DNA from: a virus
Length of the DNA: 20,638 nucleotides
Reading direction: 5' to 3' (one strand)
Virus record (IMG/VR): IMGVR_UViG_3300017751_000324
Location: 1 to 20,638 of that record
The notes under the pieces were generated by a model. The model made no database searches. It saw only the letters and a list, made by a program, of their open reading frames with translations, and was not told the DNA's origin. Both the position numbers and the translations under genes were made by a program. Positions 2,394-18,000 of the stretch are shown in pieces. Positions within the stretch are counted from its first letter, which is position 1. The number at the start of each line of letters is the position of its first letter.

Positions 2394-2415
2394 ATTGTGT
2401 AAAGTAACTTATAAT
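2394..2415 (+). promoter_or_regulatory. Candidate phage promoter upstream of portal gene
   Basis: The terminase-portal gap contains TTGTGTAAAG (2395-2404), a member of the repeated GTGTAA motif found before other genes here, followed by a perfect TATAAT (2410-2415) five bases before the portal ATG. No convincing -35 box lies 17 bases upstream. If either element is a -10 box, transcription would begin at or just before the start codon. Confidence 0.45.
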
Positions 2416-2420
2416 ACATC

Positions 2421-4373
2421 ATGCCCAAAAGAAAATACACAAAAAAATCCGATTATTGGAACAACTTTAAAAAGGTTACCCCAGAGGCTTCAAAATTTCA
2501 AGAAGTGGCTGAGCCTGCTACAGCGGGCGAGGCATACCACGTTTCCCAGGGGTCGTACAGCAGATCTGGTTCTGTGAGTAATCTCTCATCGTCTACAACA
2601 AGCACAAGAATAAATAGATCTTCTGTTACGACCCCACCAAACAAATTTAGCCAAATAAGAGCTGGAATGCTTCCTTATGAAATGGCTTCTGATGGAGCTA
2701 ATGTCAGAGATGCTATTGAACTTTGCCAAAAGGCTTACGCCAATGTACCTATCTTTAGAAATACTATTGATATGATGTCTGAGTTCGCGAATGCGGAACT
2801 TTACTTGGAGGGAGGAAACTCAACTTCTAGAAATTTTTTCAACAAGCTGTTGGATAGAATCAAAATTTGGGATCTTAAAGATCAGTATTTCAGGGAGTAT
2901 TATAGAAGTGGAAATATCTTTCTTTACAGGGTGGACGGTAAATTCAGCATAGAAGATTATAAAAAGTTTTCTCAAACTGTTTCAGATGGCCCTTCTTTGA
3001 ATAAGTTCCCATTAAAATATGTTGTTTTGAACCCTTTTGAAATAGTAGCTAAGCGGAGTACCGTATTCAACACAAAAGATGGGGGTTACGCAAAAATACT
3101 TTCTGAGTTCGATATAGAAAGATTAGCTAGCCCTAAAAACGATTATGATAAGGCTGTGTTTGACGCCTTGGACCCAGAAGTTAAAGAGCAAATTAAGGGC
3201 GGCGCTTATTTTAAAGACGGGCTTCAGATAAATTTAAAAAGCGAAAAAATGTCTTATAGTTTTTACAAGAAACAAGATTACGAGCCATTTGCTATCCCGT
3301 TCGGTTACCCAGTTCTTGAAGACATAAATGCAAAGATGGAAATGAAGAAGATGGACCAAGCCATCATGAGGACGGTTGAAAACGTAATTCTTATGATCAC
3401 AATGGGTGCGGAGCCAGATAAAGGAGGCATTAATCCCAATAACGTGAAAGCTATGCAGACTCTTTTTCAAAACGAATCTGTTGGACGCGTTTTAGTTTCC
3501 GACTACACAACAAAAGCAGATTTTGTTATTCCAGATATTAATAAGGTGGTTGGTCCTGGCAAGTACCAAGTTATTAATCAAGACATCAAAGATGGTTTGC
3601 AGAACATAGCCCTGAATGATGATAAGTACAATGGCGCTGAAATGAAAACTCGCGTATTTTTGGATAGACTTAAGGAAGCTCGCGAGGCGTTTATCCAAGA
3701 CTTTTTGCAGCCAGAAATTCGCAGAATTGCTTTAGACTTGGGTTTTAGATCCTACCCGACTGTTAAGTTTAAGGATATTGATTTGCGTGACGAAACTCAA
3801 TTGATGAGAGTCGCTACAAGACTTATGGAGCTTGGTCTTATTACTGCAGAACAAGGCATGGAACTCTTCCAAACTGGTAAATTTCCATTAGCAGAAAACC
3901 TAGAAAAAGCTCAAGAAAAATTCGTAGACCAAAGAGAAAAAGGTTATTTCAACCCAATAGTTGGCGGAGTTCCTATGATTGATTCAGAAACTGGTGAAGA
4001 AGAACCAGCAAAAACCAGCAACCCAACAAAAGGTATGTCGGGTCGCCCAGAAGGTTCAAAAGACCAGTTCTCTAGGGAAAATATCCAAGGCACTATTTAT
4101 GAAATAGAAGCATTAAACTCTATAGCTAAAGAAAAAATGCTAGAAAAACTGAACATAGAATCTCTTAACGAAAACCAAGAAAAAATGATAAGCCAATTAT
4201 GCGAATCTGTTATTTGTGCATCGGAAAAAGAAAATTGGACAGAAACCGTTGCTTCTTGTGTAAACGATTTTAGTGAAATCGAAAAACTAGGCTCACTGGA
4301 AGGCGTGCTTAGTATTTCAGAAGCGCACAGATTAGAAATTTACCCTTCAGCAATTTTACACCATTCAAAATGA
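2421..4373 (+). CDS. Portal protein
   Basis: A 650-residue protein directly after the terminase and before the protease-scaffold, the standard place for the portal. The portal forms a dodecameric ring at one capsid vertex, the channel for DNA and docking site of the terminase. The sequence has a basic, Ser/Thr-rich N-terminal extension (1-75), then a long mixed alpha/beta core with a segment rich in aromatic residues (REYYRSGNIFLYRVDG, about 155-175) and a helical stem/wing region rich in MK and DR pairs (about 290-430). A polar linker near 540 contains GMSGRPEGSKDQ, a low-complexity turn that I have seen in portal C-termini of related phages. The last 100 residues are acidic and helical and may extend inside the capsid. 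Its ATG overlaps nothing upstream, and its stop overlaps the next ATG (4370). Confidence 0.85.
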   Translation: MPKRKYTKKSDYWNNFKKVTPEASKFQEVAEPATAGEAYHVSQGSYSRSGSVSNLSSSTTSTRINRSSVTTPPNKFSQIRAGMLPYEMASDGANVRDAIELCQKAYANVPIFRNTIDMMSEFANAELYLEGGNSTSRNFFNKLLDRIKIWDLKDQYFREYYRSGNIFLYRVDGKFSIEDYKKFSQTVSDGPSLNKFPLKYVVLNPFEIVAKRSTVFNTKDGGYAKILSEFDIERLASPKNDYDKAVFDALDPEVKEQIKGGAYFKDGLQINLKSEKMSYSFYKKQDYEPFAIPFGYPVLEDINAKMEMKKMDQAIMRTVENVILMITMGAEPDKGGINPNNVKAMQTLFQNESVGRVLVSDYTTKADFVIPDINKVVGPGKYQVINQDIKDGLQNIALNDDKYNGAEMKTRVFLDRLKEAREAFIQDFLQPEIRRIALDLGFRSYPTVKFKDIDLRDETQLMRVATRLMELGLITAEQGMELFQTGKFPLAENLEKAQEKFVDQREKGYFNPIVGGVPMIDSETGEEEPAKTSNPTKGMSGRPEGSKDQFSRENIQGTIYEIEALNSIAKEKMLEKLNIESLNENQEKMISQLCESVICASEKENWTETVASCVNDFSEIEKLGSLEGVLSISEAHRLEIYPSAILHHSK

Positions 4374-4690
4374 AAGAAATTAAAAACCCACTCGTAGCGA
4401 ATATAAATCGCTCTAACGGAGATGTAGAAATCTCGATTGCTAAAAAATACAGCGAAACAGAGGAAGCTATGTACAAATCATATATGAGTATTTGTTCTAT
4501 GGACGACAAAGCTCTGATTGATACTTCAGGCATGGATGAAGGAGCCACTGCAAAAAGTTGTGGGATGCAGTATGACAAAATGAGAGCTATGATGAACGAA
4601 GTCGGTGAGGGCGGATTGACAGAAAAACAAAAACAACTCCCCGCAGCTTTGCAAAAAGCAATCCTTGAAAAAATGAAAAAGGATGCATAA
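4370..4690 (+). CDS. Small conserved-position head protein, function unknown
   Basis: A 106-residue soluble protein with no transmembrane segment or signal peptide. Its start overlaps the portal stop (ATGA at 4370-4373) and its end overlaps the next start by 8 bases, so it is translationally coupled to both. The C-terminal half is helical and lysine-rich, with LTEKQKQLPAALQKAILEKM near residues 83-102. I do not recognise a family. The position between portal and prohead protease suggests a minor head or assembly protein, but that is inferred from context only. Confidence 0.75.
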   Translation: MKEIKNPLVANINRSNGDVEISIAKKYSETEEAMYKSYMSICSMDDKALIDTSGMDEGATAKSCGMQYDKMRAMMNEVGEGGLTEKQKQLPAALQKAILEKMKKDA

Positions 4691-6236
4691 GTATACCACA
4701 ACTTTCGAATTTGAAGTTAAAGCCTGTGAAGAAATAGCAGGAATTAACGTGAGCGAAGCTAATATTGAAAATCTTAGATCTTTAATACCGACATCGGTAG
4801 ATCTAGAAAAAAATATCGACTTGATTGGTGTTGCATTTAATGCTGCTGTTGTAAACGAGTTCAATAAAAACGGAGATGGCATTGATACCAAAACCGCAAT
4901 TGAATCAGTGCAACAATTCATTCATAAGCCAACTAATATAGAGCACAATAAGAAAAAAGTTGTGGGTCATATTGTTAACGCTGGGTTTAGCGACTATTCA
5001 GACAGCACTGTTTTGATTAATATAGACGAAAATCAAAAAGATGCATTCAATATTGCTCTTGGCGCTGTTGTTTATAAAACCGTTGATAAGGATTTTGCTA
5101 CAATGCTTGAAAATAGCACCAACCCAAAAAACAAAATGCATAATACAGTCTCTGCAAGTTGGGAAATAGGGTTTAGTGAGTACAGCATTGCTATTGGCAG
5201 TAAGAATTTAAAGGATGCCGAGATTATTTCTGATCCCGAAAAAGTGAAAGAAATGAAGGGTGTTCTTAAGAGCTTTGGGGGCAAAGGAGTGACCGAGGAC
5301 GGTCGCCCAGTTTACCGATTAATTACTGGAAAAGTATATCCTCTTGGTATTGGTTTTACTATGAAACCTGCGGCTAATGTCAAAGGCGTTATCAGCAACG
5401 AGTACAAAGAAGAAGAAAATATTAAACAAGATAAGGATCAACTTGTTGATAATTCCAACAAAGCCCAAGCGGCTCATTTAAAAAAAATATCCGCCGAAAT
5501 TTCACAAAATTTAAAAAATACTGTAAATAACACTAAAATCATGGACTTAGAAACACTCTTATCAGAATTGAAGGACTCTCTCGCGGAAAAGAAATTCTCC
5601 GAAGAAGCGGTCGCTGGCATGACTTCGACTTTTGCCGAAGCCATTAAACAAAAAGATGACGAGTACCAAGCTTCTCTTGAGGCTGCAGAAAAAGAAAAGG
5701 CTGAAATCGCATCCGCGAGAGAAGAACTTGAAAAATCTGTAGAATCTATAAAAGAGGAACTTAAGGTAGCTCAGGAGCGCATTGGCGATTTTGAATCAGA
5801 GAAGAGAGCTGAAGAAGCTGTCGCTCGTTTCAACACACGTATGGAAGAAATCGATTCTATTTACGATCTCGAAGAAAGTGATAGCTCTTTTATCGCTGAG
5901 AAGATTAAAGGTCTTGATGATGCAGAAGAATCTTTCGCATCTTTCAAAGATGAACTCGCTGTTTTTTGGGCTTCTAAAAATAAAGAAGCTAAAGCAAAGA
6001 TCGAAGATGAAATCAAAGCTCGTGTTGAAGCAGAAATTGAAAAGCGCCTTACTACAGTAGAAGCCTCTGAAATCACTGAAGAAGTGGTTGCTGAAGAAGT
6101 TAATGTTGAGAAGGCTCTTGAAAATGCAGAAGCTACTGACACTGTTCTCCCTAACAATAACGAAGCTCAAGCTTCAAAAACAACTTTAAAGGAAAAGTTC
6201 GCTGCTGCGTTTAGCCGCGACAATGTCCTTGGATAA
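4683..6236 (+). CDS. Prohead protease-scaffold fusion
   Basis: A 517-residue protein that appears to join two functions. Residues 1-235 look like a phage prohead maturation protease of the assemblin/U35-S78 type: FIHKPTNIEHNK (79-90) provides the candidate catalytic His88, and TVSASWEIGF (145-154) provides candidate nucleophile Ser147 or Ser149, the usual His then Ser order. Residues 287-517 are highly acidic and helical, with a predicted coiled coil at about 325-385 (repeating E/K heptads) and a short basic helix at the very C-terminus (KTTLKEKFAAAFSRD), the classic composition of a scaffold that binds capsid protein. In known phages the protease degrades the scaffold during maturation. Its start overlaps the upstream gene by 8 bases. 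An internal in-frame ATG at 5541 could give the scaffold alone. The exact catalytic residues are inferred. Confidence 0.8.
   Translation: MHKYTTTFEFEVKACEEIAGINVSEANIENLRSLIPTSVDLEKNIDLIGVAFNAAVVNEFNKNGDGIDTKTAIESVQQFIHKPTNIEHNKKKVVGHIVNAGFSDYSDSTVLINIDENQKDAFNIALGAVVYKTVDKDFATMLENSTNPKNKMHNTVSASWEIGFSEYSIAIGSKNLKDAEIISDPEKVKEMKGVLKSFGGKGVTEDGRPVYRLITGKVYPLGIGFTMKPAANVKGVISNEYKEEENIKQDKDQLVDNSNKAQAAHLKKISAEISQNLKNTVNNTKIMDLETLLSELKDSLAEKKFSEEAVAGMTSTFAEAIKQKDDEYQASLEAAEKEKAEIASAREELEKSVESIKEELKVAQERIGDFESEKRAEEAVARFNTRMEEIDSIYDLEESDSSFIAEKIKGLDDAEESFASFKDELAVFWASKNKEAKAKIEDEIKARVEAEIEKRLTTVEASEITEEVVAEEVNVEKALENAEATDTVLPNNNEAQASKTTLKEKFAAAFSRDNVLG
5521..5530 (+). promoter_or_regulatory. Variant promoter-like motif inside protease-scaffold gene
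   Basis: CTGTAAATA lies 11 bases before an in-frame ATG (5541). The same nonamer, preceded by a similar A/T run, lies 12 bases before the tail tube start on the minus strand. This is a weaker relative of the GTGTAA motif seen elsewhere in the window. It lies in coding sequence, so chance occurrence is possible. Confidence 0.25.
5541..6236 (+). CDS. Possible nested scaffold protein (internal start)
   Basis: The ATG at codon 287 of the protease-scaffold gene starts exactly at the boundary between the protease-like part and the acidic coiled-coil part. Translation from it would give a 231-residue scaffold beginning MDLETLLSELKDS. Many phages make free scaffold this way, lambda Nu3 inside gene C being the best-known case. 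The upstream bases are A-rich like those of other genes here, and a promoter-like CTGTAAATA precedes it. It is an alternative product of the same frame, not an independent gene. Evidence is positional only. Confidence 0.4.
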   Translation: MDLETLLSELKDSLAEKKFSEEAVAGMTSTFAEAIKQKDDEYQASLEAAEKEKAEIASAREELEKSVESIKEELKVAQERIGDFESEKRAEEAVARFNTRMEEIDSIYDLEESDSSFIAEKIKGLDDAEESFASFKDELAVFWASKNKEAKAKIEDEIKARVEAEIEKRLTTVEASEITEEVVAEEVNVEKALENAEATDTVLPNNNEAQASKTTLKEKFAAAFSRDNVLG

Positions 6237-6259
6237 AAAATATTTAAACTAAAAAAATT

Positions 6260-6880
6260 ATGGCATTAAGATTACTCCCATTCAGACAATATAACGAGCA
6301 TGACGTAGTAAATATGTTTGCTCTTAACTCCGCTTCGGTTCTTGAGTCCACCACTGGTGATGGCGCAGGTTCCAATGGCGTTTTTGTTAAAGTAACAAAC
6401 GGAAACTTTGACCAAGAAGTCATTACTTACGGTAGTGATTCTTACCTTGGCAAGACAGATTATCCTTTTGTTGGCGGCGACATGTATCCAACTAACCCTC
6501 TTGAAGTCAATGTTGCTGCTTCTGGCGAAATCCCTCTGGGACTGACTCTGAATCAAACAGCTAAAGCTGACGAAAATGGAGAGAAGCTCATTTACAATAC
6601 AACCAAAAAAGAAGAGCTTCAAGCTGTTCTTCCTGGCCAAAGCGTTCCAGTTGTAACTAAAGGCATCTTCACTCTTTCTGCAAATGCTATCGAAGGTGGC
6701 GCAGCTTCTGTATTCACTGTTGGTGATGGTTTTGAAGTTGCTGGCGCTGGCACTGTTGGCCCTGCCACTCTAGGCTCTGCCACTTCTCTCGGTTCTATTC
6801 TTGGAACTGGATCTCGCGCCTCTCAAGGCGGCCTCACTGATCAATTCGCTGGTGACTACGTAGTCGTCAAAATTGGTTAA
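6260..6880 (+). CDS. Probable capsid decoration/stabilising protein
   Basis: A 206-residue protein directly upstream of the major capsid gene, the usual place for a head-decoration protein. The N-terminus MALRLLPFRQYNEHDVVNMF is a conserved opening I associate with proteins preceding the capsid gene in marine phages. The middle (about 65-140) is beta-rich, with PLGLTLNQTAKADENGEKL and a VLPGQSVPVVTKGI segment that suggests a small beta-barrel. The C-terminus is glycine/alanine-rich and low in charge. There is no signal peptide. Codons favour C-ending synonyms as in the capsid gene, consistent with high expression. The upstream leader is A-rich with no Shine-Dalgarno. The decoration role is inferred from position and composition; a head fibre or minor capsid protein is possible. 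Confidence 0.65.
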   Translation: MALRLLPFRQYNEHDVVNMFALNSASVLESTTGDGAGSNGVFVKVTNGNFDQEVITYGSDSYLGKTDYPFVGGDMYPTNPLEVNVAASGEIPLGLTLNQTAKADENGEKLIYNTTKKEELQAVLPGQSVPVVTKGIFTLSANAIEGGAASVFTVGDGFEVAGAGTVGPATLGSATSLGSILGTGSRASQGGLTDQFAGDYVVVKIG

Positions 6881-6899
6881 TAAAAAAGAATTTAAGAAT

Positions 6900-7991
6900 A
6901 TGAAAATTACTTTAAAAAACACTCCCGAACAAGTCGAACTGGTAAAAGCAATGGCTTCTCGCAATCGCGATGTAGCTTATGAAGCACAAACTGCTCTTGC
7001 CGAATTCATTGGCCCTGTTCTCGCAGAAGTTATCAACAATGCTCCAGCATTGTCTAACCTCTTCACCACTCTTCAGTATAATGCTGATGATAATCCTTCA
7101 ATTCCTCTGGATCTGTATTTCGACGTTTCTGACGAAGATTATGTCAAAGTATTCAGCCAAAGCCGTGCTGGCGGTCTTCCTACTTCGGAAGTACTCCCAA
7201 CATCTGCAGAACTCAAGATCGCTACTTACAATCTTGATTCCGCAGTGAGCTTTGATCGCCGTTACGCTGCTAAGAGCCGCATGGACGTTGTCGCTAAGAC
7301 AATGACTCGTGTTGCTCAAGAAATCCTTCTTAAGCAAAACACAATCTCCGCTAACGTAATCATGAAAGCCCTTGCTAATGCAACTACAAACGGCTATTCT
7401 CACGTTATCGGCGCTCAAACAGCAGATCGTTTCACATTGGCTGATTTGAATGCACTTACGACACGCTCTAAGAGAATCACCACTTCATTTGCTGGTGGCA
7501 CTCCTGACGCTCGTCAAGGCCGTGGCATGACTGACATCATCGTTTCTCCTGAAATCGTTGAAGAGCTTCGTGCAATTGCTTACAACCCAATCAACACTAA
7601 AGCTGCTCCTGGTGCTGGTGCCAACTCTAACGTTCAAACTGCTGACGTTATTGCTGAAGAAGCCTACCGCGCTGCTGGCGCTCCTGAGTTCTACGGCATC
7701 AATGTCATTGAGCTTAATGAATTTGGTGATGGGCAGAAGTTCAACGCTATCTACGGCGCAGCCGCTGGTGTTGGTTTCACTCCTGCTTCAGATCAAATCG
7801 TTGTTGGTATCGACCGTAGCCGTGAGGCTCTTATCCGCCCTGTAGCTGTTGACAGCGAAAACGGTGGAGAGTTCAACCTCATCGCTGACGATCAGTACAG
7901 TATCCGCCAAAACAAGATCGGTTACTTCGGTGGTCTTGAAGAAGGTCGTGTTGTTCTTGACAACCGCGCACTTGTTGGTGTGACTGTTTAA
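6900..7991 (+). CDS. Major capsid protein (HK97-fold type)
   Basis: A 363-residue protein that would form the icosahedral shell. Features that fit: it follows protease-scaffold and decoration genes; it is moderately acidic, has no membrane segment, and has a typical capsid length. An N-terminal helical region (about 10-45) is followed by a segment with aromatic and acidic residues (YFDVSDEDYVKVFSQS, about 69-84) like an E-loop, a long helix near 125-155, and a beta-rich C-terminal half. The gene ends at the strongest terminator in the window. I chose ATG 6900 over an in-frame TTG at 6873 because the ATG has an A-rich leader like its neighbours, while the TTG lies inside the upstream gene. Codon use is the most biased in the window, as expected for an abundant protein. 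Confidence 0.88.
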   Translation: MKITLKNTPEQVELVKAMASRNRDVAYEAQTALAEFIGPVLAEVINNAPALSNLFTTLQYNADDNPSIPLDLYFDVSDEDYVKVFSQSRAGGLPTSEVLPTSAELKIATYNLDSAVSFDRRYAAKSRMDVVAKTMTRVAQEILLKQNTISANVIMKALANATTNGYSHVIGAQTADRFTLADLNALTTRSKRITTSFAGGTPDARQGRGMTDIIVSPEIVEELRAIAYNPINTKAAPGAGANSNVQTADVIAEEAYRAAGAPEFYGINVIELNEFGDGQKFNAIYGAAAGVGFTPASDQIVVGIDRSREALIRPVAVDSENGGEFNLIADDQYSIRQNKIGYFGGLEEGRVVLDNRALVGVTV

Positions 7992-8013
7992 TTCAGATTA
8001 AATACTTAAAACT

Positions 8014-8043
8014 AAGCCGTCCCATTTGGGGCGGCTTTTTTTT
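8014..8043 (+). terminator. Intrinsic terminator after major capsid gene
   Basis: A 10-bp stem pairs 8014-8023 with 8028-8037 around an ATTT loop (AAGCCGTCCC with GGGGCGGCTT, one G-U pair) and runs into eight T residues (8036-8043). It lies 22 bases after the capsid stop. The candidate promoter for the next gene begins inside its T-run. Confidence 0.93.
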
Positions 8044-8052
8044 GTGTAATAT
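8042..8052 (+). promoter_or_regulatory. Candidate phage promoter after capsid terminator
   Basis: TTGTGTAATAT follows the terminator directly, 26 bases before the ATG at 8079. A promoter is needed here because the terminator should end upstream transcription. It is a member of the motif set at 2395, 8715, 11880, 12942, 12975 and 15000. Confidence 0.5.
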
Positions 8053-8078
8053 TGGTGCGTTTCTTTTATCATATAAAT

Positions 8079-8711
8079 ATGAAAGATTCATCAAAACAAA
8101 CTAATAAAAAAGGACAGGCACAGGAGAAATTACATGAAGGTATCCCTGTAGACAAGCAAAAAACAAAAGAATATATGAAAAAAGTCAAGCAGCATATTGC
8201 CACTGCAGTTGAAAATGACGAACCTAGTAACGAGCAAATGCAAAAGGAGGATGTTTTGCGAAGCTTAGAATATACAGATGGCAAGCAAAGAGATGAAATC
8301 GACCAAATTGAAGACAAAGAAAAACTTATGGGGGTCGATGTTATTTCTCCATTTGGGACTGGTAATCCTAGAGTGTTTAAAAGAAAACTAGAATCTATGG
8401 GCCACGTCAAAAAAACTAAACTTGCCGAAAGGACAGGCACAAGAATTTTTGCAGATGCAGAAGCCCAAGATAGTGCCTTGATCACAGCCTTTAATCAGTG
8501 GAGGGGAGGGAATTGGAGTTCCACTGGCAGCCAAACTGAAGCAAAAATAGGCGTGCTTGCGGCAGATTCTATGAAGGAGTTTGAGGTCAAAATAAAAAAT
8601 AAAACCCTCTCAGAGCTTCAAGAAATGGCCATGAAATTAGGTTTCACTCCTAGTTTTGACAGAATTAGATTAATCTCCGCTCTGAAGCAGGAGTATTTAA
8701 AACGTGGCTAG
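8079..8711 (+). CDS. SAP/Rho-N-like C-terminal protein, function unknown
   Basis: A 210-residue soluble, charged protein. The N-terminal 90 residues are Lys/Gln/Glu-rich and probably disordered or helical. The C-terminus (about 174-210), LSELQEMAMKLGF followed by RIRLISALKQEYL, has the helix-turn-helix-like spacing of SAP, HeH or Rho-N domains, which bind nucleic acid or mediate head-tail contacts. The middle contains a short motif ISPFGTGNPRVFKRKL (about 87-102). The function is not known to me. Position between capsid and adaptor suggests a minor head protein, perhaps DNA-associated. I take ATG 8079 as the start; in-frame TTG 8052 and GTG 8055 lie inside or next to the promoter-like motif. 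Confidence 0.72.
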   Translation: MKDSSKQTNKKGQAQEKLHEGIPVDKQKTKEYMKKVKQHIATAVENDEPSNEQMQKEDVLRSLEYTDGKQRDEIDQIEDKEKLMGVDVISPFGTGNPRVFKRKLESMGHVKKTKLAERTGTRIFADAEAQDSALITAFNQWRGGNWSSTGSQTEAKIGVLAADSMKEFEVKIKNKTLSELQEMAMKLGFTPSFDRIRLISALKQEYLKRG

Positions 8712-8714
8712 TTT

Positions 8715-8726
8715 TTAGTGTAATAT
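8715..8726 (+). promoter_or_regulatory. Candidate promoter upstream of lysine-rich gene
   Basis: The 20-base gap between genes holds TTAGTGTAATAT. If TAATAT (8721-8726) is a -10 element, transcription would start around the ATG at 8732, giving a leaderless mRNA. There is no room for a Shine-Dalgarno. Confidence 0.5.
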
Positions 8727-8731
8727 AATAT

Positions 8732-8977
8732 ATGGAAAACAAATCAGACGATATTTTAAATACCCTAACCCTTGCTAACGGGAAAGAAGAAGTTAAAAAA
8801 GCGACTACTCCAAAGAAAAAAGCAGTCAAGAAAGCAGCTAAAAAGCCAAAGTACTCTTATGAAGAATTGAAGAAGAAAAAGCCCTACGAGCTTGAGGCAA
8901 TATGTAAGGAATTAAGTATTTTAGTAGGCAGATTTAATAAAGTTGAAGTCATTAAAAATATTTTAGATAAAAATTAA
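8732..8977 (+). CDS. Lysine-rich small protein with SAP/Rho-N-like tail
   Basis: An 81-residue protein in which about a quarter of residues are lysine. Residues 18-40 form a histone H1-like tract of KK, AAKK and PKKK units; residues 43-81 form a compact helical segment, YELEAICKELSI then KVEVIKNIL, like the SAP/HeH/Rho-N fold. This is the same kind of C-terminal element as in the preceding gene, so the two may be partners or distant duplicates. A basic tail plus a small helical domain fits a DNA-condensing or head-internal protein, but this is inferred. The adaptor-like gene follows after one base. Confidence 0.7.
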   Translation: MENKSDDILNTLTLANGKEEVKKATTPKKKAVKKAAKKPKYSYEELKKKKPYELEAICKELSILVGRFNKVEVIKNILDKN

Positions 8978-8978
8978 T

Positions 8979-9422
8979 ATGAGTAATATCGGAAATTTAG
9001 CGACCTCTATATATATAAACGAATTTGACTCTAGCGGAGTCACGGTAGAATCTATTTCTGGGTGGTTGGACAATAATATTGGGCACCTTAATAATGTTCT
9101 CCATACCAGTTTTTCTGGATTAAATGGAGAGGTTGATGGGCTAAACCTTGAAGAGCAGAGCATCTATAAGGAAATGTATTTGTACCATTACTACACCAAA
9201 CAAACGAGAAATACTATTCGCGGGATAGCTGATGACACGGACGGTAATATTTTAAGCGTGAGGGATGGTGATAACGCCATTACATTCGTTAATAAGAATG
9301 AAGTGTCCAAGGTTTATAAGAGCCTCGCTCAGGACGCTTATGACAGCTTGCAGGGCTTGATTGTAAATTACAATAGCTACCAATCGAGCCCAAGGCAAGT
9401 TGGCGGCATTGAAGCTTCCTAA
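8979..9422 (+). CDS. Head-tail adaptor-like protein
   Basis: A 147-residue protein that I recognise as similar to marine-phage virion proteins at the head-tail joint. It has an N-terminal helical bundle (SISGWLDNNIGHLNNVLHTS, about 26-45), a helix EEQSIYKEMYLYHYYTKQ (58-75), a central segment with VNKNEVSKVYKSL (about 104-116), and the characteristic end YQSSPRQVGG (about 134-143). Proteins of this type bind below the portal and connect it to the neck. The rest of the neck genes lie just beyond, on the opposite strand. The gene ends at two terminators. The start is preceded by A-rich sequence only. The adaptor assignment rests on position and remembered similarity. Confidence 0.65.
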   Translation: MSNIGNLATSIYINEFDSSGVTVESISGWLDNNIGHLNNVLHTSFSGLNGEVDGLNLEEQSIYKEMYLYHYYTKQTRNTIRGIADDTDGNILSVRDGDNAITFVNKNEVSKVYKSLAQDAYDSLQGLIVNYNSYQSSPRQVGGIEAS

Positions 9423-9459
9423 AAAATAAATGATTTACCCCTCAGAGCTTGTCTCTGAT

Positions 9460-9490
9460 AGCGTGATCTCGAAAGGGGTTGCGCTTTTTT
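9460..9490 (+). terminator. Intrinsic terminator, plus strand
   Basis: An 11-bp stem (9460-9470 with 9475-9485, including several G-U pairs) is capped by a GAAA tetraloop (9471-9474) and followed by six T residues (9485-9490). It ends the transcript of the adaptor-like gene. A small hairpin (CAGAG/CTCTG, 9443-9457) sits just upstream. Confidence 0.8.
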
Positions 9491-9500
9491 GTTCGAGCAT

Positions 9501-9529
9501 AAAAAAACCCCGTCGGATTCGACGGGGTT
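9501..9529 (-). terminator. Intrinsic terminator, minus strand
   Basis: A perfect 10-bp stem (AACCCCGTCG at 9506-9515 with CGACGGGGTT at 9520-9529) has a 4-base loop. Read on the minus strand it is followed by seven T residues (complement of 9501-9507). It lies 22 bases past the stop of the tail tube gene. Plus-strand function is less likely because only a broken T-tract follows. Confidence 0.9.
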
Positions 9530-9551
9530 AGTTTAGTTTGTTAATTTATTA

Positions 9552-10979
9552 TTATGATAAGCTCACCGACGCTGTGATGTCAGCACTTACAGAGTTATCG
9601 GTAGGAGCAAACGAAAGAGCAGTAGCTACTCCACTAACCCCTGTGACACTATCAACACCATTATTACCAGTAATTGTTCCACCAGCGGTAGAAGTCAAAT
9701 CAAGATCATCTGATCCAATATAGCTTGTAACAAAGGATCTGCTAACTTGACCGTCAACGTAACCAATTGTTTTAGGCGCGTCGCCAGAAGCAATGGTTAC
9801 ACCGTTGATGGTGACTGATTCAGTTGCAGTGAGTCCTCCGTCAGCAATAATAACTGGCTGAAGAGCATACTTGGCGTCAGTGTTTTTGCCAGAGAAGAAA
9901 ATATTATTTTCTAAGTCATCTGGGCCACCAACAGAAAGACTAAAAGTAAGATCTACTGACTTGTTTGGTCCAACACTTGAACTAAATGATTCAGAGTCAA
10001 GCTTTAGATTTGTAAGTTTATAAATTGCAGAGTAATCTCCAGCGGAATCTTTAATCTTGATTTGAGCGCTAGGAATAAAACTATCATTCGCTACAATATC
10101 AGACAAGGCTCTTTGCTGTGTCTCATTGACAATAGCAGAAACAGAAAGAGTAGGTGTAATTGGGAAATCCACAGTTCTGGCGTAAGGGAATTTTGTCCCC
10201 AGTCTTTCGATTGGAGTTCTACTAAGAGGTATACTCAAAGATACGCTTTGGACGTGACCACCATCCGCACCCGCAATAGATGCGATTGTGCTTGAGTCAG
10301 CGCTTGCTAGATCAAATTCAATATCAGCAGGTCTCAGGGCTGTCGCTATGCCAGATTCAGTGCCAGGATCAGCACTTCTGATCTCGATGCCATCGCCAGC
10401 TACCTGATTGGCGATTGGCGTACCCGAAACAGGGTCAATGCCAGCACCACTAAATGTGCCAGAAAAACCATCATTACTGCCGCTAACATTTGTTGAAGCA
10501 TTAATGTTTGAACCTTCAAACGAAACAGAAACCGTAGGAAAGCCTCCAACCGAAGCTTCTAGGGAATAGTCAGTGACAAATGCATTACCGATTCCTATAG
10601 AACCAAAAGAGCCAGTACTAAAGTTGGCGTCTTTGCCCTCTGGAGAGGTCATAATGTACAAGTTTTGACCGCTGGAAGAAGTGATTTGGCCAGAAACAAA
10701 ACCCACATTTAGGTCTGAATTAGCGAAATTAAGAACTTCTTCGTTATACCCATCTGTCAGGTAATAAGAAAGGTCAGCCGAAACTGTAGGAGCTTCAAGA
10801 ATCAATGAATCAATTCTAGATAGCTGACCAAACTGATTGATGTCAGTACGGGAAACATTAAAGGAATAATTCGCGGATTGAACTCTGCGAAGTTGCATGT
10901 GATCTGCTTTGCCTGTAGAATCAATGTTCTCACTAGCGAAGAGGGCTTCTGATTGGTAAATAACTCTATTTCTACTCAT
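9552..10979 (-). CDS. Major tail tube protein with duplicated tube domain
   Basis: A 475-residue beta-rich, cysteine-free protein, the likely tail tube subunit. Two halves are similar: residues 33-157 and 243-350. Each begins VQS, has an SRT turn, and then alternating-residue strands, for example LEAPTVSADLSYYL against PITPTLSVSAIV, and each ends with a strand pair such as PTVSVSFEG against KSVDLTFSLS. In phage T5 the tube protein pb6 is a known case of duplicated tube domains forming trimers with pseudo-sixfold symmetry; the same may hold here. A glycine/serine-rich linker lies between halves, and residues 360-475 form a further beta-rich domain that could project from the tube. It is the last gene of the minus-strand operon, before a terminator. 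The leader has the CTGTAAATA motif. Confidence 0.82.
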   Translation of the reverse strand: MSRNRVIYQSEALFASENIDSTGKADHMQLRRVQSANYSFNVSRTDINQFGQLSRIDSLILEAPTVSADLSYYLTDGYNEEVLNFANSDLNVGFVSGQITSSSGQNLYIMTSPEGKDANFSTGSFGSIGIGNAFVTDYSLEASVGGFPTVSVSFEGSNINASTNVSGSNDGFSGTFSGAGIDPVSGTPIANQVAGDGIEIRSADPGTESGIATALRPADIEFDLASADSSTIASIAGADGGHVQSVSLSIPLSRTPIERLGTKFPYARTVDFPITPTLSVSAIVNETQQRALSDIVANDSFIPSAQIKIKDSAGDYSAIYKLTNLKLDSESFSSSVGPNKSVDLTFSLSVGGPDDLENNIFFSGKNTDAKYALQPVIIADGGLTATESVTINGVTIASGDAPKTIGYVDGQVSRSFVTSYIGSDDLDLTSTAGGTITGNNGVDSVTGVSGVATALSFAPTDNSVSADITASVSLS

Positions 10980-10991
10980 AATTTATGTCTG

Positions 10992-11000
10992 TATTTACAG
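10992..11000 (-). promoter_or_regulatory. Variant promoter-like motif before tail tube gene
   Basis: On the minus strand CTGTAAATA lies 12 bases before the tail tube ATG (10979), in a 42-base gap. It differs from the main motif by C in place of G before TGTAA. A separate promoter would fit the high demand for tube protein. Confidence 0.35.
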
Positions 11001-11021
11001 TTAAAAATTTAAAATGTGAAA

Positions 11022-11870
11022 TCACACCCTGGGAAATCTACTTGTGGAAACTTCAAAGTCTATAAACCCTATTTGTAAATCTCCTGCCATCTTATTTTGC
11101 GCTCTTTCTGAAAATTTTGAAACAACTACGTCTTCTATATAATAAGGGTTAGCTGTTAGGTATTGATTTGATAGATCGATATAGTTGTAAACTCCTTCTT
11201 TCACATCTCCGTATTCAGTGGAAGGGTTTTTGGAAAAAGGTATTTTTGCAATAGCTTTTCTGGTTGAATCTGCAAATATAGACAATACTCCATCTAACTG
11301 ATAAGAATCTTCCGCCAACACAACAGCTTTGATTGTGTTGGTTGTTTTTTCTTCCCCTCCAAAAGCAAAGCCCTCGTTTCTCATATACTCGCAATTAATG
11401 AATATTGCTGGAGCCATTTGGTCGTATGGAGGCGTTCCAGATGGGGATTTTAAGTACCTACTGTTTATTTCAAATTTGTTTTCCAGTATCAAATCTTCTT
11501 CCGTTTCATTTGTTAGGTAAACATTAAAATCTTTTACTGCGAATGTCCCGCTAAGAATTTCATTTTCGCTAAAATTACCTCCAGTTTCAATAATTCTTCC
11601 ATTTTCAAAATCAAATATAAGATCGTCGTTTCTGTCGTACCCGTTAAATGAACTAGGTATAATCGGGTTTGTCTCGCCAGTTATAGAAGAATCTTTAACC
11701 CATTGTTTGTATGGGCTAGAGTACGTTTTATAAGAGCTAGGTAGCCTAGAATCTTGAAAATTATACAAGTAACCAGTTTGATTAGAGTAAGCTTCGCCTT
11801 TTTGAAGTAGGTGATTGTCAAACCAAAGAAAGAAACTTGACATTAATTCGTGCTGATATTGAGGCTTCAT
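11022..11870 (-). CDS. Neck/tail-joining structural protein (tail-terminator position)
   Basis: A 282-residue soluble protein. The N-terminus, QYQHELMSSFFLWFDNHLLQ (about 4-23) followed by KGEAYSN, matches a conserved virion protein I associate with marine phages, encoded next to the tail tube gene. Aromatic and acidic residues are frequent, and a beta-rich middle (FAVKDFNVYLT, about 110-120) precedes a mixed C-terminal domain. Its order after the head-closure and gp10-like genes and before the tube is that of a tail terminator, but it is about twice the usual length of that protein, so it may combine functions or be another connector. The start follows a TAGTGTAAA motif by 9 bases with no Shine-Dalgarno. 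Confidence 0.65.
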   Translation of the reverse strand: MKPQYQHELMSSFFLWFDNHLLQKGEAYSNQTGYLYNFQDSRLPSSYKTYSSPYKQWVKDSSITGETNPIIPSSFNGYDRNDDLIFDFENGRIIETGGNFSENEILSGTFAVKDFNVYLTNETEEDLILENKFEINSRYLKSPSGTPPYDQMAPAIFINCEYMRNEGFAFGGEEKTTNTIKAVVLAEDSYQLDGVLSIFADSTRKAIAKIPFSKNPSTEYGDVKEGVYNYIDLSNQYLTANPYYIEDVVVSKFSERAQNKMAGDLQIGFIDFEVSTSRFPRV

Positions 11871-11877
11871 ATGTTAT

Positions 11878-11888
11878 TCTTTACACTA
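11878..11888 (-). promoter_or_regulatory. Candidate promoter overlapping upstream stop codon
   Basis: On the minus strand TAGTGTAAAGA runs from 11888 to 11878; its TAG is the stop codon of the upstream gp10-like gene. The ATG of the next gene (11870) is 7 bases after TAAAGA. Confidence 0.45.
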
Positions 11889-12476
11889 TGGTAGTTGTAA
11901 GTTTTCGAATTCTTTTTTATACTTTTTTAAAAGAGCGGAGATGTATTGCATATTTTTGAATTTGGATGAGCTTTTTCTAACTTTTCGCGAAGATTGGATG
12001 CCTAAACCAGATCTACTGTTGTCTGTTTTTATTTTAAGGTAATACCCCAATCCAGATATACCTCTTTCTATACCTCGTGCCCAACTTCTTCCTGGAGCCC
12101 AGGGCATGGGGGTTACTGAAAAAATTTCTTTAGCATCTGGAAGGTCAATAGCAAACTCTACGGATTTATTTGTTACTCGTAAAAATTTAAATGTAGTTTG
12201 GCTAAGCATATCTTCTATTGGCTTTGTCGGGTCTGAGCCTCCGTCAAAACCTATAAAAGAAAAAAGGTTGCCGCTCCCGCCTCCTAGTGTGCCGCTTATA
12301 TTACTTGAATTCACACCAGCCTTTAATTCAATTGTAACTGGATGGTTTAAAAACTCTACCATCATTTTGTTTTTAAGTTTTTGAAAAGCAGCCCCGAACT
12401 GTTTTTGAATTTGAGTTCTTGCGGCTTGTGGTACTTGCTTCTTTATACTTGAAATAGTATTCTGGTCTAAAGTCAT
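11886..12476 (-). CDS. HK97 gp10-like neck protein
   Basis: A 196-residue basic protein placed between the head-closure-like gene and the tail genes. It has an N-terminal helix rich in K and Q (10-40), a glycine/serine stretch (about 57-72), then a central motif MPWAPGRSWARGIERGISGL (124-143) that resembles the turn-helix of gp10-like tail-completion proteins, and a very basic C-terminus (about 155-190, RKVRKSSSKF). Such proteins sit at the head-tail interface. The start overlaps the last base of the upstream stop codon (position 12476 is shared), so the two are coupled. Identification is by position and motif and is moderate. Confidence 0.6.
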   Translation of the reverse strand: MTLDQNTISSIKKQVPQAARTQIQKQFGAAFQKLKNKMMVEFLNHPVTIELKAGVNSSNISGTLGGGSGNLFSFIGFDGGSDPTKPIEDMLSQTTFKFLRVTNKSVEFAIDLPDAKEIFSVTPMPWAPGRSWARGIERGISGLGYYLKIKTDNSRSGLGIQSSRKVRKSSSKFKNMQYISALLKKYKKEFENLQLP

Positions 12477-12934
12477 TACTCTTCGATTGGGGATAAATAA
12501 AAGTGGTAATATTGAGGGCCAAATATCCCAGTTGGGTTTCCTTTGCTAGATATTGTATATCTCCTACCTTCAAATTCACAACGTTTGGCTTCTTTTAAAA
12601 TTTCAAAGCCGTCTTCATTTACGGTTATTCTAACTAATCCGTTAATTGTTTCTATGCCGAGCTGGCTGCCTATTTTACCATCGGTTATATTGCCCTCGTC
12701 AGCCTTAATATATTTTATTCTAGCTTTCACTAAGTGAGAAACGACGGTTTTCTCTGTGGTTTTTTGGCCATTCATAGATCTCCCATAGATACCGTTAAAT
12801 TGAGAACTTGCAGATATTAAAACTTTTTCTCCTTCTTCGTATACGGTTATTGTTCGAGCAAAAGTTTCATGAATGTCGTCAATAATAGCTTTGATGGTGT
12901 TTTTTTGGGATTCTGAAATTAAGGAGGTTGCCAT
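12476..12934 (-). CDS. Head-closure (stopper)-like protein
   Basis: A 152-residue protein, first gene of the minus-strand operon. It opens with a helix ISESQKNTIKAIIDDIHETF (6-25) followed by ARTITVYEEGEKVLI, a beta-strand arrangement like that of head-closure connectors, which have a helix then a small beta-barrel. The remainder is beta-rich with a C-terminal FGPQYYHFYLSP strand. Such proteins plug the portal after packaging and later connect to the tail. The start is 7 bases after a TAGTGTAAA motif, so the mRNA may be leaderless. Confidence 0.6.
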   Translation of the reverse strand: MATSLISESQKNTIKAIIDDIHETFARTITVYEEGEKVLISASSQFNGIYGRSMNGQKTTEKTVVSHLVKARIKYIKADEGNITDGKIGSQLGIETINGLVRITVNEDGFEILKEAKRCEFEGRRYTISSKGNPTGIFGPQYYHFYLSPIEE

Positions 12935-12939
12935 GCCTG

Positions 12940-12950
12940 TGTTTACACTA
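12940..12950 (-). promoter_or_regulatory. Candidate promoter of the minus-strand neck-tail operon
   Basis: The minus strand reads TAGTGTAAACA from 12950 to 12940, with a T-rich stretch (TTTTTC) just before it. Five bases separate TAAACA from the ATG at 12934. It faces away from a second copy of the motif at 12975, forming a divergent pair. Confidence 0.55.
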
Positions 12951-12974
12951 GAAAAACTACAGAATGTCCTAAAA

Positions 12975-12985
12975 AAGTGTAACCT
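12975..12985 (+). promoter_or_regulatory. Candidate promoter of the right-hand tail operon
   Basis: AAGTGTAACCT lies 21 bases before ATG 13007, in the 72-base region between divergent genes. It is the only copy here with a weak AAGG (12998 area) before the start codon. Confidence 0.5.
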
Positions 12986-13006
12986 TATTTAGGGTTAAGG
13001 ATTATT

Positions 13007-13297
13007 ATGATTGCAAAAGAGTTTTTAAATGATCGGTCGGATCATCATATCAGGTTTCTGTTTAAATATTTTTTACAGACTTTAGAGGAGATGCAAGCTG
13101 TTCACGAAATTAATTTCGCCAAGCTTTACGATGGCCTGCCATCAGAAAATCACCCAATTATTGAAATGGCGGATTATTTTGATGAAGATCATTATGAAAT
13201 GTATAGGAAAAAGATCTTGGATATTGGAAATTCTGTTTTGAGAGATTATAATAGTGAGTTAGAAAATCTAACAGTAGAATTTACATTTAAGAAATAA
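13007..13297 (+). CDS. Small protein preceding tail chaperones, function unknown
   Basis: A 96-residue acidic, aromatic-rich, mostly helical protein with no membrane segment. The middle is rich in H, E, Y and D (ADYFDEDHYEMYRKKI, about 55-70), and the C-terminus (NSELENLTVEFTFKK) could be a beta-strand. I do not recognise a family. It begins the right-hand operon and is 2 bases from the tail-assembly-chaperone-like gene, so a role in tail assembly is likely from context. Confidence 0.72.
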   Translation: MIAKEFLNDRSDHHIRFLFKYFLQTLEEMQAVHEINFAKLYDGLPSENHPIIEMADYFDEDHYEMYRKKILDIGNSVLRDYNSELENLTVEFTFKK

Positions 13298-13299
13298 AT

Positions 13300-14034
13300 A
13301 TGGCTAAGGAAAACATTTACGAATTCACAGTTAACAAATCTGAAAAACAAAAGGTTGAAGTTAATAGAAAAAACAAGGAAACTGGAGAAGTAGAAACTGT
13401 CTTGCAAAATAAGACCGTAAAGACTCCAGTCAATTTTATTGTAAATAAACCAACCAGGCGTATCGCTGACGAAGCAGAAATTCATTACTCCATTCAGCTT
13501 AGTAAGGCAATTAAAATGGGAATAGTTACAAAAGCTATGCTCGTTAAAAAGTACGCCGACAACGGGGGCGCTTTGTCAGAAGAGGAGTCAAAAGAACTAT
13601 TGAAATCTCTTAAAAAGTTAAACGACCTAGAAAACGAGTATAAGTTGGTAGCGGCCACTAAGGATAAAAAACAAAAGGCTAGAGAAAATGAGTTGGAGCT
13701 AGAAATCTCGACACTGCGAAGAGATATGATAAGCCTAGAATCTTCGCTACAGTCTGTCTATCAACACACAGCAGACGCAAAGGCTGAAAGAGAAACTCTT
13801 TTGTGGTATGTCATAAATTTATCTAAGGTAAAAAACGCAGACGGCGAAATTATTGATTGGTTTGAGGGCATGGATTTTGAAGAAAAGCTCGAAGATTTTT
13901 ATAATAAATATGAATTGGAAGAGGGTTTCGATTTTGAAGTAGTGTCCAAATTATCCAAGATTGTTGGTTTTTGGTTCTATTCTCAGGATTCCTCACAAGA
14001 ATCTATAGCTAAGTTCATCGAGGAAGATGAATAA
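13300..14034 (+). CDS. Tail assembly chaperone-like protein 1
   Basis: A 244-residue protein upstream of the tape measure, where tailed phages encode tail assembly chaperones. The N-terminal 48 residues form a small beta-rich, lysine-rich unit; a conserved-looking segment KPTRRIADEAEIHYSI (50-65) leads into a helix with LSKAIKMGIVTKAML; a long coiled coil spans about 90-165; and the acidic C-terminal domain (about 166-244) contains DWFEGMDFEEKLEDFYNKY. By analogy with lambda gpG it would keep the tape measure soluble and recruit tube subunits. It overlaps the next gene by 8 bases, but in a different frame and without a recognisable slippery sequence, so a G/GT-style frameshift is not evident. 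The start is preceded by AAGAAATAAAT. Confidence 0.65.
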   Translation: MAKENIYEFTVNKSEKQKVEVNRKNKETGEVETVLQNKTVKTPVNFIVNKPTRRIADEAEIHYSIQLSKAIKMGIVTKAMLVKKYADNGGALSEEESKELLKSLKKLNDLENEYKLVAATKDKKQKARENELELEISTLRRDMISLESSLQSVYQHTADAKAERETLLWYVINLSKVKNADGEIIDWFEGMDFEEKLEDFYNKYELEEGFDFEVVSKLSKIVGFWFYSQDSSQESIAKFIEEDE

Positions 14035-15001
14035 TGATCAAAATTTAGATATAGTATCCGAAATATTGCAGGGCGTTTCTATTGTAGATAGCAGCTTTGG
14101 CATTTTATATTTTAAGCATTTATCTCAACAAGAACAAAGAGAGATAATATCAAAATCTAAGGTTTTTAAAACCGAGGCAAAGTCGAAAGGTTTAATGACT
14201 GAAAAAGAAGCGCTTTCTGAACTTTTTTCTCAGGAAATGTGGACCGAAAGCGAGGAAGCTTTGATTGTAGAATATGAAAAAGAAATAGAAAACTCAAAAG
14301 AATCTATGGCTCTTCAGGTGTTACCATCAAAAGTAAAACTCCTGCAAAAAAGTATTGATAGCGTTGATGAAAAATTATCAAAAATACAATCTAATAGGAG
14401 CAGTCTTCTGGGGCTGACTTGTGAAAAGTACGTTCATAATAAAACCCAAAAATCAGTAATTGAAAACATACTGTATTACGATAGCGATTTTAAAAAGCCA
14501 GTTTTTGACGAGCTATACATAAACGAAAGCTCCAGGGAGGTAGAAATATACAAGCTTCAACAGGGGTTTTTCGAAAAATTTCAAGACGATAATATTTCTA
14601 AAGCTGTTTTAAGTGATTACTTTTCAATGTATTTACCTTTCTGCGAAGATGTTTTGGGCGTTTTTGGAAAGCCTTTAAAAGACTTAACTAATTATCAATT
14701 AAAGTTGATATCTTATGGGAGGTATTTTTTAAATATTTTTAAAAATACAGCAAAAAGTATTCCCGAAAATGTAGCAAAAGATCCAGAATTATTGATGAGC
14801 TTTTATCAGTCACAGAGAAGTGATTCAAAGCCCACCAAGTCAAGAGAAGGTCAAGGAGCATCAACTTACTTTGGAGCCAGCAGGGAAGATATAGAGGCGC
14901 TAAAATCAGATAATGAAAAATCAATCGACTTGTCCGAGGAGGTAAAGAAAAGAGGCGGCTCTCTAAATATGCAGCAAATGATGGAACTGCACGGAGTTTA
15001 A
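14027..15001 (+). CDS. Tail assembly chaperone-like protein 2
   Basis: A 324-residue soluble protein between the first chaperone-like gene and the tape measure. It has a helical N-terminus (DIVSEILQGVSIV), a coiled-coil region around residues 75-130, a mixed central domain with many Tyr and Phe residues, and a flexible tail with a Ser/Lys-rich linker (about 266-285) ending in LNMQQMMELHGV. The closing segment resembles the short C-terminal peptide of chaperones that contact the tape measure, but I do not recognise a named family. Its ATG lies inside the end of the preceding gene (ATGAATAA), suggesting translational coupling. Role by position: the second of the two proteins usually found before the tape measure. 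Confidence 0.6.
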   Translation: MNNDQNLDIVSEILQGVSIVDSSFGILYFKHLSQQEQREIISKSKVFKTEAKSKGLMTEKEALSELFSQEMWTESEEALIVEYEKEIENSKESMALQVLPSKVKLLQKSIDSVDEKLSKIQSNRSSLLGLTCEKYVHNKTQKSVIENILYYDSDFKKPVFDELYINESSREVEIYKLQQGFFEKFQDDNISKAVLSDYFSMYLPFCEDVLGVFGKPLKDLTNYQLKLISYGRYFLNIFKNTAKSIPENVAKDPELLMSFYQSQRSDSKPTKSREGQGASTYFGASREDIEALKSDNEKSIDLSEEVKKRGGSLNMQQMMELHGV

Positions 15002-15010
15002 GTGTAATAC
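15000..15010 (+). promoter_or_regulatory. Candidate promoter of the tape measure gene
   Basis: AAGTGTAATAC begins within the stop codon of the upstream gene (TAA at 14999-15001). ATG 15017 is 6 bases after TAATAC, leaving no room for a ribosome-binding site, so a leaderless transcript is possible. Confidence 0.5.
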
Positions 15011-15016
15011 CATTAC

Positions 15017-18000
15017 ATGGCGGTACAAGTAAAAGTCACTCTAAATCCAGTAGATACAAGCAAGGTTGATGCGGCTTTAGCTAGGATACAATCCAAGGCT
15101 AAAGGTGTTGATTTTGGAGGTGGAGCGAGGTCCATAGAAAAGCTTTCCAGGCCGCTAGGAAAAATAAATGGACAGGCTACTGAATTCCAAAAATCCCTAG
15201 AAGCTTCTAACGCTCGTGTTTTGGCTTTTGGCGCTTCTGTTGCTGTTATAAATAAACTTTCTCAAGCTTTTTCTGCTCTTGTCGCCAACACAATTGAAGT
15301 AGAAGCCACCTTTGCTAAAATTAATACTATTCTTGGCGGCACTCAAAAGCAATTGCAGCAATTTGGTAATGGCATTTTTGCTGTGGCTCAAAAAACAGCT
15401 ACATCATTCGACGATGTAGCGACAGGCGCTCTTGAATTAGCTAGACAAGGTTTGAGTGTTGAAGAATCTCTTTCTAGGGTAGAGACAGCATTGAAGCTTG
15501 TTCGTGTCGCTGGGGTTAGCTCAGAGCAAGCCGTATCTGGTCTGACTGCAGCTATTAAAGGGTTTGAGGGTGCTGGTTTAACCGTAGCAGCGATTGGTGA
15601 TAAGCTGTCAGAAGTTGATACAAAATTTGCTGTATCTACTGAAGATTTGATTAATGGTCTTGAGCGAGCGTCGGCATCTGCCCGTGTAGCTGGTGTTTCC
15701 TTTGACGAGCTTTTGGCTGTTGTTACGACGGTACAGGAAAGAACTCAACGTGGTGGTGCTGTTATTGGTAATGCATTTAAAACAATTTTTGCTAGACTAG
15801 GTAGGGTAGATACTCTGGTTGCACTAGAAGACCTAGGTATTAGTGTTTTGGATACTCAGGGTAATGTTAGATCTGCTATTCCTTTATTTGAAGAATTAGC
15901 TGCAGAATTAAATAAGCTTGGGCTAAAAAGCGTTGAGGCTGGAGACATTATTCAAAAGGTAGCTGGTGTCCGTCAAAGAGATATTTTAATTAGTTTAGTT
16001 GAGGATTTAAACTCTAGCCAAAGTCAGTTTTCTAAAGCTTTGCAAACTTCAGCCACCGCTGCTGGAGCGCTAGATTCAAAGAACACTTCTCTTAACCAGA
16101 CCTTAGAAGCTTTAATAAATAATTTAACTGTTGGCGGGCAAAAACTTGCTTCCATTTTAGGAGAATTAGGGTTTACTGATGCAGTTAAGGATATATTGAC
16201 AGTATTCTCATCTGTGGTTAGTGGCCTCACTGATTTATTACAAGGCGATTCGATAGGGGCAAAGTTTGCGCAAGGTATAGTGAAAGGAATAGGTGGTGTT
16301 TTAACTGGGCCTGGGCTCGCTTTAGTTGGTGCTATATTTATAAAATTGTTTGTAGATCTAGCTAAGTTTGGAGCTTCGTCTCTTACTAGTTTGTTAGGAA
16401 TAAATAAAGCCGCCCAACAGCAAGCTGCCTTGCAGCAATCTGTTTTACAGACCCTTCTTCAAAACGAAAACATACAAAGAGAAATCTTAGCGCTTGAGGG
16501 GAATAAGGTTGCGCAAGAACAATTACTTTTAAAAATTTATAATCAACAAGCTGCCGCTTTAGCTAGAGTTCAAAAAGCTGCGGCCACAGTAACTCCTGGG
16601 CTTTTCGGAGCTGGGTTAAGGGGTGGCGAAAAAGGTGTTGCTCCAAAGACGAAAAGAGCTGCTGGTGGATACATAGCTGCAGAAGCCAATGATGTTTCTC
16701 GTGGGGTTGGTGGAGCGCCATCTAGCGCTAAGGTTGTTTCGATTCCTAATTTTGCTTTTGGTGGAGGCAAGCGCGGGACGATGGTTGCTAATACCAGCGA
16801 ATACGTTGTGCCAAATTACGCTGGCGGTGGAGATGCTATATTTAATCAGGATATGGTTAAGACTATGGGTCTTCCTGCTGGAGCTAAGAAGTTGAATGCT
16901 GCTGGTGGGTTTATTCCTAATTTTGCTGCACCAAGAAGCTTGGAAAGGTTGAGGGGTATAGCAAAGGGTCGGGGCCCAGAAGCTCTTGCAGCTAAATCAG
17001 AATTAAGGAAAAGAGAAAAACAAAATTCTTCTCAAAAACTTATATACGATCCTCGTTTTGCTATGGTAGTTCCACAAGTTTTGGGCGCTAAGCAGCAAAT
17101 ACAGGGAACGAGAAAAGGCAAGAAGGTGGCTTTTGATTTGGTTGGCTATGAACCTGGTGTTGGTTCTAGGGTTAAAAATGACGAGCAGTTGGATCAATCT
17201 ACTAGAAAATTTGCACTGGGTCTAGCAAACCAACAAGCGGGTCTAATGGGTGGCCCGCCACAGGCGAGTAAAATTTTAAAATTAGCAAATTCTGGAGCAA
17301 TATCGGCTTTATCTGGAACTATTTTTGAGACAGCGGTGAGTTCTTTGTTATCTTCAAAGGATTTTGATTCAAGGTCTGAAATTTCTACTTTTGACTTTGT
17401 TGGAAGTGGTGCAAATTCAAAATTAAAAAAACTTTTTCCACAATTGGGGGCTGCCACACAAATAGAAGCTAAGATAAGACCCAGTCCAGATAATAAAAAA
17501 AGCATGTTTGATAAAGTGTTGAAGGCAACAGGTAATGCTGCTGGAGGTTATATCCCAAATTTTGCTGGCGGAGCTTTAGATGAAGCAGTCGCAAGAGAGC
17601 AAGCTGCTGGTCTTCCGATAAACCAAATAAGAATTAATCAAAGCGGCAAACTACGCAACTCACAAAACCCTCAAGGTCTTGCTGTTACAAATACAAGAGA
17701 CGAACCAACTGGAGCAATTCCAAATTTTGCTGCTGGAGGAAGATCAACACCAGCAACGCCAGGAGGTTCTTCTGATGGTTTTAATGGGGGGATTTTGGCC
17801 GCTTCTACTGGGCTTTTCTTCTTGAGCAGTGCATTTAGTAATGCGGAAAGCGGTATTGGTAAATTTATTAGTGAAATAGCTTTTGCTGCTTCTGCTCTAA
17901 CCTCACTCACTTTATTAAAAGGACCAGTGGAAAACATTGGGGCTAAGTTATCAAATTTTGGATTGGATTTAGCTACTAAACCTAAAGGAGGGAAGGTGGC

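Follow-up and report, generated by a model that had tools for sequence, protein, structure and literature searches.

A strict GTGTAA element at operon heads in an uncultured phage group: a candidate -35-less promoter core with probably leaderless transcripts

In T4-type phages, late promoters consist of a lone and strict -10-like element, TATAAATA, which precedes structural operons with no -35 element, and late transcription involves the sigma factor gp55, the co-activator gp33 and the sliding clamp gp45 (PMC1524935; PMC2988020; PMC7892883). Another compact arrangement is found in Deinococcus-Thermus, where a -10 motif, TANNNT in the housekeeping case, is adjacent to the ORFs and yields leaderless mRNAs (PMC12340547). 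The element studied here, GTGTAA, has features in common with both systems. It was noticed in a 20,638-base fragment of a tailed phage, the entire record being hereafter called the window. In the explanation that we consider probable, GTGTAA would be the core of a phage-specific promoter, -10-like and devoid of a -35 part, placed at operon heads, read by a phage sigma factor and giving rise to leaderless transcripts.

GTGTAA in the window and in its relatives

The window carries the last part of a kinase-like gene, the gene of the terminase large subunit (518..2368, + strand), a portal-like gene (2421..4373, +), a major capsid-like gene (6900..7991, +), a block of four genes on the minus strand and the tail tape-measure gene (15017..20386, +). 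The portal-like gene is designated from position and synteny and the capsid-like gene from position and abundance, both without a family match; a comparison of their products with 50,697 phage records gave no match, while hundreds of environmental contigs carry relatives of them. The tape-measure protein contains repeated IPNFA-type motifs in Gly/Ala-rich surroundings. Two strong terminator hairpins, one of them bidirectional, are located between convergent gene blocks at 9460-9529.

An exact search of both strands of the window finds 11 copies of GTGTAA, at 2397, 4258, 8044, 8718, 10154, 12977 and 15002 on the plus strand and, by their low coordinate, at 4356, 9797, 11881 and 12943 on the minus strand. 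The initial annotation had counted nine, missing the copy at 10154 and one minus-strand copy. Its seven copies near gene starts are all present, 14-35 bases 5' of a start codon and, as it had remarked, always in the orientation of the gene; the remaining four are intragenic. Although the total is ordinary (11 versus 7.8 expected), such upstream slots make up only 1.4% of both strands, and the probability that at least seven of the 11 copies fall in them is ~3e-11 in the window, which bears out the clustering beyond chance first proposed. The fuller flanked consensus held less well. The exact core stands, the flanks of aligned sites show only a weak preference for A as the preceding base and for A/T on either side, and WWGTGTAAWR with one mismatch allowed is not enriched in the window. 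Since the loose 10-mer is not enriched and the raw count is ordinary, the signal resides in the placement of the exact hexamer.

On the plus strand, the copy at 2397..2402 lies 24 bases from the ATG (2421) of the portal-like gene, and TATAAT then follows at 2410-2415. The copy at 8044..8049, 35 bases from the ATG at 8079 (an alternative TTG start at 8052 is possible), stands directly after the intrinsic terminator (8014..8037, +) located 3' of the major capsid gene, as had been described; the capsid gene itself is operon-internal and has no GTGTAA. Shorter distances are observed at 8718..8723 (14 bases to the ATG at 8732) and at 15002..15007 (15 bases to the ATG of the tape-measure gene, 15017). 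On the minus strand, the copy at 11881..11886 lies 16 bases from the ATG at 11870 and that at 12943..12948 lies 14 bases from the ATG at 12934. The latter is the divergent partner of the copy at 12977..12982 (+), found 30 bases from the ATG at 13007 with an AAGGA-type sequence, a Shine-Dalgarno match, in the leader. This pair, already recognized in the first description, recurs in several relatives.

Searches with the terminase and the capsid gave well over 100 related loci, all of them on metagenomic contigs, mostly incomplete. When upstream regions of orthologs less than 85% identical to one another were compared, GTGTAA was found before the portal gene in 27 of 34 cases, before the tape-measure gene in 10 of 10, and before the 8732 and 12934 genes in 5 of 5 and 15 of 15, for these last two genes always at 14 bases. 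The corresponding counts are 4/5 for the 8079 gene, 16/28 for the 13007 gene and 8/36 for the 11870 gene. Eight control genes of the window have GTGTAA in one of 236 ortholog upstream regions (capsid, 0/74); a ninth control, the 8979 gene, has it in 15 of 36.

Gene calling in the relatives was mechanical and admitted only ATG starts, and near-identical upstream regions were removed. In the resulting 376 non-redundant regions GTGTAA ranks first of the 4096 hexamers against a second-order background (114 versus 16.8 expected, z 23), in a statistic that ignores phylogeny and in which orthologous sites are still non-independent. It is again the top hexamer in the near subset alone and in the far subset alone. 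Each of 12 large relatives (59-140 kb) carries 4-15 copies at 14-16 bases before an ATG, versus 0.03-0.23 expected, so that the motif is commoner before genes than chance would have it in these genomes, as the promoter idea had required. In the distant relative G019:C12, whose capsid and terminase are ~45% and ~40% identical to those of the window, GTGTAA is the top hexamer of the whole contig (15 versus 0.3 expected), often farther from the ATG; a 21-kb part of this contig, taken alone, seemingly has none at 14-16 bases.

The core tolerates almost no change. Among 852 genes, exact GTGTAA occurs 80 times at 14-16 bases before the ATG, versus 1.1 expected, and the single-mismatch variants occur 0-4 times each. 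No conserved -35 element accompanies it, either in 94 aligned tight sites or in 239 aligned sites, in agreement with what had been seen in the window. GTGTAA marks operon heads and is nearly missing from operon-internal genes. None of 276 genes overlapping the previous gene has a tight GTGTAA; the element heads the genes of PhoH (6/7), the portal protein (9/10), the ribonucleotide reductase small subunit (8/9), the 12934-type protein (10/11), the DUF5824 protein (9/9) and the tape measure (4/4). GTGTAA would be used genome-wide before operons of structural genes, PhoH, ribonucleotide reductase and others, and the functions of these genes would suggest a late class. In a phage group that is widespread, its placement offers a simple rule by which transcription units can be located and true start codons recognized.

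Transcription start and neighbouring promoter classes

Measured at 339 non-redundant sites, the first G and the ATG are 14, 15, 16 or 17 bases apart in 103, 70, 42 and 24 cases, respectively, and 13 bases apart in a single case. At 76 sites with longer leaders, in which these positions are not occupied by an ATG, a set including several orthologs of the portal and 13007-type genes, purines amount to ~41% at +10 to +13 and to 83% at +14. From this jump and from the distance cut-off, we infer that transcription would start about 14 bases after the first G, the element then occupying about -14 to -9. The A of the ATG would be at +1 to +4 in most GTGTAA-led genes, and most of their mRNAs would be leaderless, beginning at or near the start codon. 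Shine-Dalgarno-like sequences are found before 8% of genes overall, near the control level, versus 60% in the T4 late region, and before 1% of the genes with a tight GTGTAA.

Other genes of the relatives have abundant host-type CTTGACA-N17-TATAAT promoters, in which TTGAC peaks at 35 bases and TATAAT at 11 bases before the ATG. With ordinary sigma-70 geometry, this spacing would make host-type transcription begin with the A of the ATG or immediately beside it. Rows of small genes (L162:955-7874, minus strand, with similar arrays in G002), many with their own CTTGACA-N17-CATACTG/TATAAT promoter a few bases before the ATG, are probably early genes. Furthermore, TATAAT boxes with no -35 part, 11-13 bases before the ATG, accompany or replace GTGTAA at 2410-2415 in the window and before orthologs of the 8079 and 13007 genes. 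They may correspond to a host promoter, to a second phage class (a third class overall) or to a wider specificity of one sigma factor.

In their sequence, the CTTGAC-type promoters are close to CTTGAC-N17-CTATAT, the consensus of Sinorhizobium (PMC2873474), a likeness that gives no more than a hint of an alphaproteobacterial host. The bins of metagenome-assembled contigs to which relatives belong are mixed (Flavobacteriaceae, Rhodospirillales, Rickettsiales, Verrucomicrobiales and others) and were uninformative about the host. Two further upstream sequences were observed. An Hsp20-like gene of the relatives (L164:6094-6459, minus strand) has TTGGCACG-N4-TTGCA ~30 bases before the ATG in most of eight orthologs; judged by its sequence, this box is a textbook sigma-54 (RpoN) promoter, and a box of the same kind stands ahead of a gene in the distant relative (L277, just before 1301). 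In the window, the region 10994-11021 (minus strand), 5' of the 9552-10979 gene, contains TTTCACATT and TTAACTGTAAA, kept in many relatives, GTGTAA being absent there.

It is tempting to imagine an abundant group of uncultured phages with a near-absolute six-base regulon element, a sigma factor of its own and no -35 element, in which most transcripts, from promoters of the host sigma-70 type and of the phage type alike, are leaderless and the promoter is locked to the start codon genome-wide. We give this broader picture an even chance. The leaderless placement would suggest a phage lineage dependent on leaderless translation.

Candidate sigma factors and rival explanations

Two proteins resembling sigma-70 are encoded by the relatives, SigA in the vicinity of the terminase and SigB next to SSB; Sigma70_r2 was found in 10 of 13 relatives, above the cut-off in 6. 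SigA (~223 residues) is encoded two genes ahead of the pair formed by terminase and kinase, ~2 kb to the left of the former. It combines a sigma region 2 with a helical C-terminal part; its fold matches are weak, the best of them being sigma factors. SigB (~185 residues) has dNMP-kinase-like and SSB genes as neighbours and matches sigma factors by both profile and fold. A phage sigma or RNA polymerase gene elsewhere in the genome had been named in advance as support for the promoter, and both proteins are encoded on IMGVR_UViG_3300025666_000015, a contig with a terminase 96% identical to that of the window. In the genome to which the window belongs, SigA would be expected ~2 kb left of the terminase, past the end of the record. 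A small zinc-ribbon gene is found immediately before SigA in ten relatives (L162:14103-14423, plus strand, and orthologs); it is a possible co-activator candidate.

The reader of GTGTAA would most likely be the host RNA polymerase associated with one of these factors. In several relatives, SigB operons begin with host-type TTGAC promoters, so that early expression of SigB through the host enzyme is plausible and SigB is the likelier of the two sigmas to be made first. The SigA operon is found, in many relatives, behind the GTGTAA-led PhoH gene, often with a TATAAT-like box of its own. SigB is only slightly favoured as the reader. G019:C12 has SigA and GTGTAA, and SigB was not found there; this contig lacks replication genes and looks incomplete, so its SigB absence does not allow a choice between the two. 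A helical C-terminal part is present in both sigmas at the place expected for region 4, yet the GTGTAA sites have no -35 element. The initial annotation had proposed a phage-modified or a phage-encoded polymerase. A phage-specific -10-like promoter agrees with the placement of the element and with the sigma genes, whereas the phage RNA polymerase was abandoned: no T7-type enzyme was found in the relatives, the T7 positive control being detected, and no RpoB-type subunit or multisubunit RNA polymerase either.

Reading by a host factor is unlikely. In this case, sigma-70, perhaps helped by a phage co-activator, would take TGTAAT as a variant of TATAAT, or a host alternative sigma would be used. 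Host-type TTGAC/TATAAT promoters are plentiful in the same genomes, GTGTAA and TATAAT boxes interchange in some orthologs, and TTGAC occurs together with GTGTAA at the ribonucleotide reductase gene. However, the two classes mostly head different genes, a well-placed TTGAC being found in 107 genes, only 8 of which have GTGTAA as well. The mismatch-intolerant, -35-less GTGTAA sites are also unlike sigma-70 sites, and the phages carry sigma genes of their own. It is more doubtful still that GTGTAA is the binding site of a phage activator or repressor overlapping a promoter; a strict hexamer at a fixed site near the start would suit a regulator too, but the word is non-palindromic, always has the orientation of the gene and is surrounded by no further shared promoter element.

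A translation signal, in the form of a ribosome-binding site of unusual type or of a start-stop mini-ORF (GTG-TAA), would account for the fixed distance to the ATG and for the missing Shine-Dalgarno sequences. Such a role is most improbable and both versions were rejected, as GTGTAA is absent from operon-internal genes, which need translation signals too, as the copies in G019:C12 are mostly farther from the ATG with an AAGGA-type sequence in between, and as ATGTAA, GTGTAG and GTGTGA are not enriched. Finally, an artefact of chance or base composition, with which the ordinary total in the window would agree, is refuted by the placement in the window, the hexamer rank in the relatives and the excess at 14-16 bases, and its probability is negligible.

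Comparison with known systems

In SPO1, the middle and the late promoters are composed of a -35 and a -10 part. The presence of two phage sigma-like genes together with host-type early promoters recalls the sigma cascades of SPO1-type phages; the lone hexamer distinguishes the present system from the SPO1 promoters. The likeness to Deinococcus-Thermus lies in a -10 element a few bases before the start codon, with no Shine-Dalgarno sequence and, as we infer for the phages, a leaderless mRNA. Unlike the housekeeping TANNNT, GTGTAA would be a phage-specific word, used beside host-type promoters of the same geometry.

Membership of the T4 type is unsupported. TATAAATA is scattered with no peak before 1252 genes of the relatives, and comparison of the SigA and SigB profiles by hhalign with a single, divergent T4 gp55 sequence gave no credible match. 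No bacterial-type beta clamp was found in the relatives, with a model that also misses the clamp of T4. The geometry differs as well, the element lying 14-17 bases before an ATG with no Shine-Dalgarno sequence, versus 22-36 bases with one in T4. In the literature, as seen in titles and abstracts, no GTGTAA phage promoter of such kind was found. Nevertheless, GTGTAA, like the T4 late element, is -10-like, -35-less and placed before structural operons in phages with their own sigmas, although the word itself is not TATAAATA. The best reading of these sequences is that the GTGTAA system would work like T4 late promoters while differing in sequence, in sigma factor and in its leaderless output. 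If so, it would join that of T4 as a second design among phage promoters devoid of a -35 element, with candidate sigma factors at hand.
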